Shown here in pieces: positions 24,459 through 49,594 of a DNA stretch of 64,000 nt (within the stretch, counting starts at the first letter, position 1; every line of letters begins with the position of its first letter). The translations under genes and the position numbers were made by a program. The stretch spans positions 1 to 64,000 of the forward strand of contig JACDGS010000022.1 in the NCBI GenBank assembly GCA_013821455.1, given 5' to 3'. Below the pieces are notes generated by a model. It saw only the letters and a program-made list of their open reading frames with translations. It was not told where the DNA came from and ran no database searches. Origin of the DNA: Chthoniobacterales bacterium. Its GTDB lineage: Bacteria > Verrucomicrobiota > Verrucomicrobiia > Chthoniobacterales > UBA10450.

Positions 24459-26005
24459 GGTTTCACGACCACGAACGAACGGCTGCGTTGCCGGCAAACC
24501 GAAAGCACCTGTGGCTGGCTCGGATCCAGATTGTCCCGCGCCGCCTCGTACTCGCGCACGTTCGCGACGGGGTTCTGGTTGACCGCTTCGATCACATCGC
24601 CAGCACGCAATTCCGCTCCCCCACTCCCGCCGTCTATCTTGGTCACGACCACTCCGCGCACGCTGGGCGGCACGCCTAACGACTGCGCAAGGCGCGGAGT
24701 CAGCTCTCGCACTTCGATGGCCGAGAGCACGCCGCCGGAAGGAGCGGCGGCCTGGTCGTGATCTTGGTTCTGATCGTCTCCGTCTGGGTCGTTAGGCGAG
24801 GGCGGCAGCGCCTGTCCCGGATTATCGGGCGGAAGCGCACGCGCCAGTTGGTAGTTCGCCGGTTGCTCCTTGATCTTCGCCGAGACTGTCACCGGCTTCC
24901 CCTGGCGGTTGACTTCGACTGCGACTTGTTTCTCGAGGTCCACTTGAGAAACAAGACGCTGCAATTCCGCGATGTTATGGACCTCTTTCCCATCGAATTT
25001 TTGAATGATATCTCCGCGTTGAATTCGCGCCACCGCTGCCGGTGAATCGGGCATGACTGCGGCGACCACCACGCCGGAGCTGTCGTTGGCGGCGAATGGG
25101 CCACCGCGAGGAGCGGGTGTTTCAATGCCGAGATAACCGCGAATAATGCGGCCTTGTTTTAACAGACTGTCGAGCGCCATCCTCACCGTGTTTGAGGGAA
25201 TGGCGAACCCGATTCCCTGCGAGCCGCCGCTCCGCGAAATGATCGCGGTGTTAATTCCGATAACTTCGCCGCGCAGATTAATCAGCGGACCACCGCTGTT
25301 CCCCGGATTGATCGCGGCGTTCGTCTGCAAAAAATCGCCGAAGCCATCGACCCGGTTGGGCCGGCCTTTCGAGCTGATGATGCCGTCGGTCACGGTTTCC
25401 TCGAAACCGAATGGATTACCCACCGCGAGCACGAAATCGCCCGCCTGCATCGCATCCGAATCGCCGAGTTGCAGCGGTTTCACGCCGGGATCGTCCACCT
25501 TCAAAACCGCGAGATCGAGCTTTGCGTCGGCGCCGATCAAACGCGCTTTGCGCACGCGGCCATCGCTCAGTTGCACCTCAATTTCGTCCACCTGATCAAC
25601 CACGTGATTATTGGTGATGATGTGACCTTCCTTGGTGACGATGACGCCCGAGCCTAACGAATTCTGCACTGTCGCCTCATCTTCCGGCCCGCGATATTGG
25701 CGGAAGTTGCCGCGGAAAAAATCGAACGGATCGAGCCCGCCATTTCGCTGCACGCGCTTCGTCGTTTTCACGCTCACGACCGATGGAATAACTCCCGCGA
25801 CCAATTTGCGCCGCTCATCGCTGAGCGAGGCCAGACTGGCCAGCGTCTTCGGATCGACCGCCGGCTCGTCCGCCAGGGTGTATTTTTCCGGCTTGGAATG
25901 CGTCGTTAGGCTGAGTCGCCCGTGATGAAGCTGGTAATCGTAGAGGAGCGAGACACCGGCGCTTAAAACCAGAACGAGGAGAAGAAATTTCAACAAATTT
26001 TTCAT
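24452..26005 (-). CDS. htrA: Do/DegP-like periplasmic serine protease with two PDZ domains
   Basis: GSGVIVTKEGHIITNNHVV..DLAVLKV..TNAAINPGNSGGPLINLRGEVIGIN. Confidence 0.93.
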   Translation of the reverse strand: MKNLLKFLLLVLVLSAGVSLLYDYQLHHGRLSLTTHSKPEKYTLADEPAVDPKTLASLASLSDERRKLVAGVIPSVVSVKTTKRVQRNGGLDPFDFFRGNFRQYRGPEDEATVQNSLGSGVIVTKEGHIITNNHVVDQVDEIEVQLSDGRVRKARLIGADAKLDLAVLKVDDPGVKPLQLGDSDAMQAGDFVLAVGNPFGFEETVTDGIISSKGRPNRVDGFGDFLQTNAAINPGNSGGPLINLRGEVIGINTAIISRSGGSQGIGFAIPSNTVRMALDSLLKQGRIIRGYLGIETPAPRGGPFAANDSSGVVVAAVMPDSPAAVARIQRGDIIQKFDGKEVHNIAELQRLVSQVDLEKQVAVEVNRQGKPVTVSAKIKEQPANYQLARALPPDNPGQALPPSPNDPDGDDQNQDHDQAAAPSGGVLSAIEVRELTPRLAQSLGVPPSVRGVVVTKIDGGSGGAELRAGDVIEAVNQNPVANVREYEAARDNLDPSQPQVLSVCRQRSRSFVVVKPR

Positions 26006-28710
26006 TAGCTAACGTGGGAAAAGTTCTCTTCTTCGACAACCAAAGCGCGGAAACGTTGATTTTCGGGTTGGCTCAAGGTCGGGTCGTCCCGAAAAATTTT
26101 CGTCGCTGTCGCCCGCGCCTGCTGCATGAGTTTCATATCCGTGCGCAAATCGCCCAGTTTCAAATCCGGTAGCCCGCTCTGCGCGGTGCCGAGCAAATCG
26201 CCCGGGCCGCGCATCGCCCAGTCCGCTTCGGCCACCTCGAAACCGCTGCTCGTTTTCTCCAGCACCTGGAGTTTCGCCACCGTTTCTTCCGAGGGATCTG
26301 AACTGAGTAAAATGCAGTAAGACTTGTGCACGCCACGCCCGATTCTCCCGCGCAGTTGATGCAGTTGCGCCAGTCCGAAGCGCTCCGCGTTCTCGATCAA
26401 CATCACGGTAGCGTTCGGAATATCCACGCCCACCTCGATCACAGTCGTACTCACTAGTACACTCGTTAGGCCGCGGCGGAAACGCTCCATCGTTGCCTGC
26501 TTCTCCGGCGCGGGAATGCGCCCGTGCAGCAACTCGCAACTGAACGGCTGCAGGCGCTCGCGCCACTTCGCAAACTCCGCCGTGGCGGCTTTCGCATCCA
26601 GCTTTTCGCTCTCATCGATTAACGGATAGACGATGTAAACCTGCCGCCCCGCTTCGAGTTCCCGCCGCAAAAACGCAAGGACATCCGGCAGTTTTTTTTC
26701 GTCGCGCGCGGCAGTCACGATCCGGCCGCGATCAGCCGGCAGCTCGTCGATCGTCGAGACATCAAGATCACCATAAAGACTCATCGTCAGGGTGCGCGGG
26801 ATGGGCGTCGCCGTCATTACCAGCACGTCCGGCGCCAGTTCTTGAGTCGTTAGGCGGGCGCGTTGTGATACGCCAAATTTATGTTGCTCATCAATCACCA
26901 CGAGCCCGGGATTTTCGAGGCCCTCCGGTTCGTAAAGCAAGGCGTGCGTGCCGACAAAAATCTGCGGGAATCCGTTGCGTATTCCGCTTCCCATATTGTG
27001 GGACGAAACAACCTTGGCGACCTCGTTAGGTGCTCGGGTAGCGCATGCGTCTCGCGTGCTGGTCGCGCTGTTCCAGCGCGACGAACTTTTTCTTCGCGCA
27101 CCATCCTCCTGTGTCCAAAGCCATGGATAATCTTCCCCTTGCCTAACGACGTGAGACTCCCAGGGATTGCGCGTAATATAATTAAACTTCTCCTCCAGAT
27201 CGCGATCCGACCTGATGTAGCGATCAAATCGCTCCCGTTCCCACACGTTACCGGTCTTGCCTTCGAGCTTGTTGATCGCATGCGCAGAAAAAGATTTCAC
27301 GGATCGCAGCAGCTCACTGAGCGACCAGAACAACCCGTTCCCTTTTTCATCCGTCGTCGTCTTGGGCCACGGCTGAACGAGGAGATGCATATGGTCAGGC
27401 ATCACGCACGCGGCGAAGAGTTCGTAGCGCTTTTCGTGAAAGTGGCGGGCCGCCTCGAAAGCGATCGTCCGTGCTTCCGGCGACAGTACACGCTGCGACT
27501 TTGTGCCAATGGTGACCGCGTAAATCGCCCACGGTTTTTCGAAATGAGGGAGACGCCGGCGGAAGTATCGCGCGTCACCTGATGTTTCTCCCTGAGAAAA
27601 AGTTCGCGACGGTGGAACACCGTCGCCAGCACGCGAGACGCATGCGCTACCCAAATCGCCGAACAACGGGAGTGGCGCGAGGTCATCTTTGCGCGCGCCG
27701 GTTCTCAGCGAGACGGCCACGCCTAACGGCTCCAGCCAGCGCGAGAGAACCGCGTAGTGTTGCTCCGCCAGGATTTGGGTCGGGGCCATGAAGGCGGCTT
27801 GCGCGCCGCTCTCGACCGCGAGCAGCATCGCCGCGATCGCGACCACCGTTTTGCCGGAGCCGACGTCACCCTGCAGCAGACGATTCATCGGCACGGTGGA
27901 CGCGAGATCTCCACGCAGTTCTGCGATGACGCGGGATTGCGCATTCGTTAGGGCAAAAGGCAGCGCGCGGAGAAAGCGCTCGAGCAGTTCGCCTTCGCCG
28001 CAATGTGAGTCGCCGCTGCGAGAGCGCGCCCGCGCGCGGCGCGCGGCAATAGCCATCTGCATCGCTAGAAATTCTTCCAGGACCAAAGCCGCGCGCGCTT
28101 TGCCTAACGACTCCCAGGTTTCCGGAAAATGCATTTCGCGCAAGTTCGTAAGATCTCCTGACGCGCGCTCCTCGCACTCGCCGAGGAGCCGATGGATCAG
28201 GCCGCGTAAAACACGCGGCGACAATCCTTCCGTCGCGGGATAAACCGGCGTGATGCGCCGGAAATGAATCGAGATTTCATCATCGTTCTCGATGATTTCA
28301 AACTCCGGATGCTCCATGCACAAGCGCGGACCGCGCCGCCGCGGCTTGCCGAAGAACACCAGCCGCTGACCGCTCACGATCATTTTCTGCACGTAATGGA
28401 CGTTGAACCATCGGCAGATGAGCGGCTGGCTCAGAGCATGTGCGCCGCTCTCTTCCAACGTCACCTCGAAGATTTTTTTGGCGTAACCGAACCGTTTGAT
28501 CTGCGTCCTGGTCACCTCGCCGCAGAGGCAAATCGGCTGCTCGCTTTCCTCGTGCGGAAAGCCGGGAAATTCACGCCGGTCTTCGTGCCGTCTCGGATAA
28601 TGCCGGAGCAAGTCTTCGACCGTCTCGAGCCCGAGCCGGCGCAACTGGGTCAGGCGTGGACGCGGAATCCAATCGATTTCGCCTAACGAACTCTGAAACG
28701 GCCACGACAT
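26005..28710 (-). CDS. recG: ATP-dependent DNA helicase RecG carrying an in-frame REP-associated tyrosine transposase insertion
   Basis: GDVGSGKTVVAIAAML, FVGTHALLYE, VVIDEQHKFGVSQR, MTATPIPRTL helicase motifs; interrupted in frame by YELFAACVMPDHMHLLVQPW. Confidence 0.92.
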   Translation of the reverse strand: MSWPFQSSLGEIDWIPRPRLTQLRRLGLETVEDLLRHYPRRHEDRREFPGFPHEESEQPICLCGEVTRTQIKRFGYAKKIFEVTLEESGAHALSQPLICRWFNVHYVQKMIVSGQRLVFFGKPRRRGPRLCMEHPEFEIIENDDEISIHFRRITPVYPATEGLSPRVLRGLIHRLLGECEERASGDLTNLREMHFPETWESLGKARAALVLEEFLAMQMAIAARRARARSRSGDSHCGEGELLERFLRALPFALTNAQSRVIAELRGDLASTVPMNRLLQGDVGSGKTVVAIAAMLLAVESGAQAAFMAPTQILAEQHYAVLSRWLEPLGVAVSLRTGARKDDLAPLPLFGDLGSACVSRAGDGVPPSRTFSQGETSGDARYFRRRLPHFEKPWAIYAVTIGTKSQRVLSPEARTIAFEAARHFHEKRYELFAACVMPDHMHLLVQPWPKTTTDEKGNGLFWSLSELLRSVKSFSAHAINKLEGKTGNVWERERFDRYIRSDRDLEEKFNYITRNPWESHVVRQGEDYPWLWTQEDGARRKSSSRWNSATSTRDACATRAPNEVAKVVSSHNMGSGIRNGFPQIFVGTHALLYEPEGLENPGLVVIDEQHKFGVSQRARLTTQELAPDVLVMTATPIPRTLTMSLYGDLDVSTIDELPADRGRIVTAARDEKKLPDVLAFLRRELEAGRQVYIVYPLIDESEKLDAKAATAEFAKWRERLQPFSCELLHGRIPAPEKQATMERFRRGLTSVLVSTTVIEVGVDIPNATVMLIENAERFGLAQLHQLRGRIGRGVHKSYCILLSSDPSEETVAKLQVLEKTSSGFEVAEADWAMRGPGDLLGTAQSGLPDLKLGDLRTDMKLMQQARATATKIFRDDPTLSQPENQRFRALVVEEENFSHVS
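27037..27062 (+). repeat. REP sequence, left end of recG-embedded RAYT element
   Basis: GTAG foot plus GCATGCG-tct-CGCGTGC hairpin. Confidence 0.85.
27626..27651 (-). repeat. REP sequence, right end of recG-embedded RAYT element
   Basis: Perfect reverse complement of the 27037-27062 REP. Confidence 0.85.
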
Positions 28711-49445: not shown

Positions 49446-49594
49446 GGGGAGCGCACGCACCCGGCGTGCTGGTGGAGGCGCCCTCGCCTCGACGAACTTG
49501 GCTGCGCGACGTCGCAAGATAGAAAAGCGGCGCGTTCCCCAAAGCCTGTTTCGGCGAGGCGCCGAAACCAGCACGCGAGGCGCGTGCGCTCCCC
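49446..49594. repeat. REP pair element in the rplB-rplW gap
   Basis: GGGGAGCGCACGCACCCGGCGTGCTGGT inverted against ACCAGCACGCGAGGCGCGTGCGCTCCCC, each with an adjacent hairpin. Confidence 0.75.

Follow-up and report, generated by a model that had tools for sequence, protein, structure and literature searches.

The window, that is, the whole 64,000-nucleotide stretch of Chthoniobacterales DNA that was analyzed, contains on its minus strand a single open frame that reads from RecG into a REP, a RAYT transposase, and a second REP and then back into RecG (Table 1). The coding frame of recG runs through both REPs as well as the RAYT, and neither a start nor a stop codon lies between the REPs. The insert in the window has no stop codon and the window has no in-frame ATG, GTG, or TTG between positions -33 and +48 relative to the RAYT core, nor did the recG copies beyond the window yield a conserved internal start for that core. 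The RecG helicase motifs on either side of the insert are intact. The earlier note had described the locus as a complete REPtron. A REP-RAYT-REP unit with cognate REPs across the genome is indeed present; the RAYT that they enclose, which shares one frame with recG, is no independent gene.

Table 1. Features of the recG locus and its REP-RAYT-REP insert (positions in the window)
Feature	Positions	Strand	Remarks
recG frame with in-frame REP-RAYT-REP insert	26005..28710	-	901 aa; stop codon 26005-26007; NCBIfam RecG equivalog NF008168, 749.7 bits (cut-off 718)
RecG Walker A GDVGSGKT	27847..27870	-	intact
N-side linker, residues 340-391	27538..27693	-	mostly REP-encoded; modelled as disordered
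REP, RAYT N-terminal side	27626..27651	-	exact inverted copy; translated GSACVSRAG
Second hairpin GCGACGGTG-(ttc/gaa)-CACCGTCGC	27606..27626	-	the other element end
GAACTTTTT (AAAAAGTTC on +)	27597..27605	-	
RAYT core domain, RecG residues 387-532	27115..27552	-	146 aa; NF047646 REP_Tyr_transpos, 78.3 bits (cut-off 80)
HUH motif MPDHMH (His440, His442)	27385..27402	-	
Catalytic Tyr511 (NYITRNP)	27178..27180	-	
GAACTTTTT	27083..27091	+	common to genomic REP units
Second hairpin GTCGCGCTG-ttc-CAGCGCGAC	27062..27082	+	one of two unlike element ends
REP, RAYT C-terminal side	27037..27062	+	GGTAG foot and hairpin; translated ...TSTRDACAT
C-side linker, residues 537-580	26971..27102	-	mostly REP-encoded; modelled as disordered
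RecG motif II DEQH	26881..26892	-	intact; far side of insert

RESULTS

The RAYT domain carries both the HUH motif and the single catalytic tyrosine of the Y1 fold, and with them go flanking inverted REPs with a GTAG foot and related REPs throughout the genome. The catalytic residues, whose mutation would have spoken against the earlier note, are intact. The score of the recG copy against the RAYT family model NF047646 falls just below the cut-off, and the copy in MetH reaches 80.2 bits. The only sequence-profile match of the RAYT in the PDB was E. coli TnpA_REP (4er8, E 4e-5). An AlphaFold model built from 20 aligned RecG-RAYT sequences shows RecG and the RAYT as folded parts joined by the two disordered linkers (mean pLDDT, 71; pTM, 0.56), and its best fold match is RecG (1gm5). 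Pfam and NCBIfam scans of the full recG frame found no Hint or other splicing domain. Among the recG elements examined, the RecG frame that they share was the only stop-free one in 30 of 30, with the other five frames open in 0 of 30; in any of those five, an insert would cut RecG short.

The two 26-bp REPs are perfect inverted copies, as the earlier note stated, where shuffled sequences predict 0.00 such matches, and the one further match in the window with up to 3 mismatches lies at 49568-49593. The second hairpins and the GAACTTTTT/AAAAAGTTC segments were likewise found as described. The source genome (4.3 Mb in 117 contigs) holds 23 exact copies of GGTAGCGCATGCGTCTCGCGTGCTGG, so the REP is not confined to this locus; the 20-base core of GGTAGCGCATGCGTCTCGCGTGCTGG occurs at 108 places with up to 3 mismatches, against 0 for the reversed control. 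The genomic unit consists of GGTAGCGCATGCGTCTCGCGTGCTGG, a second hairpin, and CGAACTTTT, and many of the exact copies form inverted pairs about 115 to 120 bp apart. Most pairs have the CGACGGTG hairpin at one end and a TCGCGCTG or TCGACGCG hairpin at the other. Because their ends are unlike, as in the element of the window, these pairs resemble REPtron derivatives with an internal deletion (REPINs). Conservation across 35 copies includes the TYYG that precedes the REP and ends at position -5, the likely border of the element.

Of the eight Y1 transposases in the source genome, a permissive REP pattern finds only two flanked by REPs, namely, those in RecG (GTAG type) and MetH (GGAG type), and both REP subfamilies occur in this genome. 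In five genomes, the variant and number of REPs appear to correlate with the RAYT element in recG. All exact REPs of G000 are the T variant, as are its recG ends, and 29 of the 31 in G001 are the C variant, again like its own recG ends. In G003, where the first HUH histidine is replaced by leucine, the REPs are mostly T, yet the recG ends are C. When one mismatch is allowed, the REP counts are 26, 45, and 60 where recG carries a type A RAYT (three genomes) and 19 and 6 where it carries type B (two genomes).

The earlier note also placed a meeting of two repeat systems here, with TCGTTAGGC at 27141 and TCGTTAGGT at 27023. Both are present, and the meeting is explained by density: the window contains 91 copies of TCGTTAGGC, about 1 per 700 bases, so that one copy in the 615-bp element is what chance predicts. 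We therefore rejected a link between TCGTTAGGC and the element. The repeat itself occurs 4605 times in the genome (62 for the reversed control), about 1400 to 2750 times in other members of the genus, and 1800 to 2150 times in G041 and G042, with far fewer copies in most of the family. In density and patchy distribution it resembles a DNA uptake sequence.

A RAYT lies at the recG site in 5 of 5 genomes of the genus examined, with the G004 gene divided between two contigs. Among the 83 genomes of the family (nearly all genomes studied are metagenome-assembled genomes [MAGs]), some recG genes carry a RAYT and others encode an ordinary RecG of about 690 to 750 aa, which indicates that the site turns over. 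Two types of RAYT, A and B, use it. One locus (L119) retains a REP remnant in a preserved frame from which the RAYT has been lost, and another (L126) has a degraded remnant resembling the other RAYT type. The RAYT matches in the family number 73, with 64 in frames of at least 417 aa and 9 in frames below 300 aa; the latter, close relatives that stand alone, show that embedding is not obligatory for the RAYT lineage. The hosts among the fetched loci are RecG (37 genes), MetH (15, at two linker sites), CarB (7, mostly with a more distant RAYT subfamily), AlaRS (6, one assigned from its site), and ThrRS (1), together with about a dozen stand-alone RAYTs; within each host, the insertion sites are fixed. 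The host names rest partly on motifs, and NCBIfam confirms examples of all five.

A scan of named genomes found the AlaRS, ThrRS, and RecG sites also in use in Prosthecobacter, Chthoniobacter, Akkermansiaceae, Limisphaerales, Opitutaceae, and a Kiritimatiellaeota MAG. A class-wide profile search placed 15 of 15 strong matches in frames of at least 730 aa; it was used instead of a phylum-wide Pfam search at E <1e-8, a rough control that misses weakly scoring embedded RAYTs. The RAYT-carrying alaS was the sole alaS found in four genomes (G002, G040, G076, and G080), and because AlaRS is essential, these fusions should be functional. Part of a RAYT-carrying alaS also lies at a contig end of an isolate, Ereboglobus sp. 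PH5-10 (L271).

Several further arrangements were seen. In Planctomycetota, RAYTs occur in three open reading frames that by eye read like IleRS or ValRS (L286, L287, and L288). One alaS frame of 1398 aa contains two RAYTs (L292, G272:C141). In four genomes of the genus, the distant RAYT subfamily is in frame in carB after LTKIDxWFLxNI (L044, L048, L056, and L057), and in G020 (L141), CarB includes not only a RAYT but also, at a later point and in the same frame, a second REP-like peptide. A Y1 transposase of a different kind continues an HisC-like aminotransferase frame at its C-terminal end (L090, G000:C65). Occupied and empty recG genes occur together in two genomes (G053:C334/C129 and G059:C12/C178), either as mixed MAGs or as two alleles.

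RAYT cores are under strong purifying selection, with an omega of about 0.06 to 0.13. Within a type, pairwise dN/dS of the core in recG is 0.06 to 0.13 (0.08 for L031/L032), similar to that of the RecG flanks, dS being high for many pairs overall. At the MetH, ThrRS, and AlaRS sites it is 0.04 to 0.13 for the pairs with measurable dS, several other pairs being saturated. Of the 31 recG copies read, 30 retain the HUH motif and 29 the tyrosine; the catalytic lesions are in L032 (histidine) and in L099 and L100 (tyrosine).

On a tree built from RecG without its insert, there are 23 changes in the state of the recG site (type A, type B, or empty) among 48 rows, which is no fewer than shuffled labels give, and close sisters can differ, as with type B in L108 versus an empty site in L133. 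This scatter of RAYT type and presence led us to reject a single ancient insertion with nothing but losses since. The RAYT tree, in turn, groups by insertion site, with 14 changes versus 30.3 for shuffled labels (0/200), and the RAYTs of either recG type are arranged partly by genus. This pattern fits site-specialized RAYT lineages that have been gained, lost, and exchanged, in a sample of one genome per species in which re-insertion and transfer by homologous recombination look alike.

DISCUSSION

The reading that we consider probable is that the REP-RAYT-REP element is a stop-free unit that uses permissive sites of housekeeping proteins as protected and expressed harbors and that, translated inside RecG, mobilizes REPs. 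The element would be a REPtron whose entire length forms one frame with neither start nor stop of its own. Its site is a loop in helicase domain 1 of RecG, and translation would make it an internal domain of that protein, with the host gene providing promoter, ribosome site, start, and stop. The linkers encoded by the REP ends are predicted to be flexible, which would let RecG and the RAYT fold side by side, presumably with RecG activity retained in the expressed fusion. The RAYT domain, as a putative single-strand HUH/Tyr nuclease, would recognize its own REP ends and the genomic REPINs and mobilize them. Most lesions of the insert, such as a frameshift or stop, would truncate the host protein, and the element would thereby be shielded from decay. 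The few permissive sites would be reused across the phylum through gain, loss, and replacement, with elements reaching and leaving them by re-insertion or by recombination.

The need of RecG for an open frame could also be all that keeps the insert open, with a dead RAYT carried as an inert passenger and the REPs spread by something else. The frame has to stay open regardless of what the RAYT does, and the three copies that lack a catalytic residue are still open. However, the requirement for an open frame would not by itself account for conserved RAYT residues, and the core has an omega as low as that of RecG. The catalytic residues survive in nearly all copies, and no other transposase of the source genome has these REP ends; we thus regard an inert RAYT as unlikely. 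The strong conservation of the RAYT would equally suit a domain useful to RecG, such as a nuclease brought to stalled forks, and RecG acts where IS200-type elements find single-strand DNA. A transposase domesticated in this way is expected at one locus with stable vertical inheritance, but similar inserts are found in MetH, AlaRS, ThrRS, and CarB, the occurrence in RecG is scattered, and close relatives have none. We rejected a RecG-specific function as the main reading because of these other hosts, and domestication in general has little probability in our judgment.

A RAYT released as a separate protein, through internal initiation or through cutting or splicing of a precursor, seems to us a similarly slim prospect. 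The modelled disordered linkers should be easy to cut, and a few of the stand-alone relatives do start on their own, ahead of the REP; against this, the embedded copies lack a conserved internal start and have few Shine-Dalgarno-like sites, the domain scans revealed no means of splicing, and the borders of the domain are variable REP-encoded linkers. Misassembly, in which REP repeats join a RAYT contig into recG, comes to mind because most of the genomes are MAGs and the contig of G004 breaks at the insert. We give it almost no weight: the same junctions recur across tens of separate assemblies, where one of the contigs is 2.7 Mb long (L261), the frame is exact every time, and the inserts evolve coherently at the codon level.

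An active RAYT harbored in frame by its host protein, the reading that we prefer, has relatives among known systems. RAYT/TnpA_REP REPtrons are known from E. coli, Stenotrophomonas, and Marinomonas (PMC8266576, PMC2817692), and TnpA_REP cuts single-strand REP DNA with the aid of the GTAG (PMC8266576). The elements described here share with them the HUH motif and single tyrosine, the flanking inverted GTAG REPs, and REPIN populations with matching ends. Known REPtrons, however, stand alone as genes, have a start and stop of their own, and carry the REPs outside the gene or at its edge, whereas here a host protein encloses the whole unit, and the sites recur. Coding regions, including those of repair genes and tRNA synthetases, are known to contain REPs and Rickettsia palindromic elements, and Opitutus terrae, also of the Verrucomicrobia, is richest in the GTAG cases (PMC3733652); RAYTs are listed there as separate genes. 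Such repeats are likewise read in frame in housekeeping and repair proteins, but they add tens of residues and no enzyme, whereas here the transposase itself is embedded. IS200/IS605 elements and IStrons also encode a Y1 HUH transposase (Pfam Y1_Tnp), but as a separate gene, and IStrons are removed at the RNA level, in contrast to an insert that keeps the reading frame.

In lifestyle the inserts resemble inteins, which are also mobile, as the RAYT inserts presumably are, and which likewise occupy, in frame, a small number of conserved positions in essential proteins, show a scattered distribution, and form site-specialized lineages. Unlike inteins, the inserts have no detected splicing domain, apparently stay in the mature protein, and encode a different enzyme; intein sites are active sites, whereas the RAYT insert sites are loops and linkers. 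REPs within genes were thus already known, and whole RAYTs within housekeeping genes are apparently undescribed: we found no description of a complete RAYT in frame inside a housekeeping protein in the open-access literature. A broader proposal, to which we would give an even chance, is that these elements form a distinct selfish class of splicing-free, protein-embedded transposases without their own start or stop, located at few permissive sites of essential proteins in Verrucomicrobiota and Planctomycetota, which would turn over in a homing-like manner and drive REPs from inside the host protein.

A survey of this transposase family excluded proteins of unexpected length, treating them as gene fusions or annotation errors (PMC6006769). 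Our results indicate that in these bacteria, an unusually long RecG, AlaRS, ThrRS, MetH, or CarB is not necessarily an annotation error. They also point to a route by which a mobile element could persist, as an internal domain of an essential protein that is hard to silence or erode. The long-term persistence of RAYTs and REPs here becomes testable with single genes.
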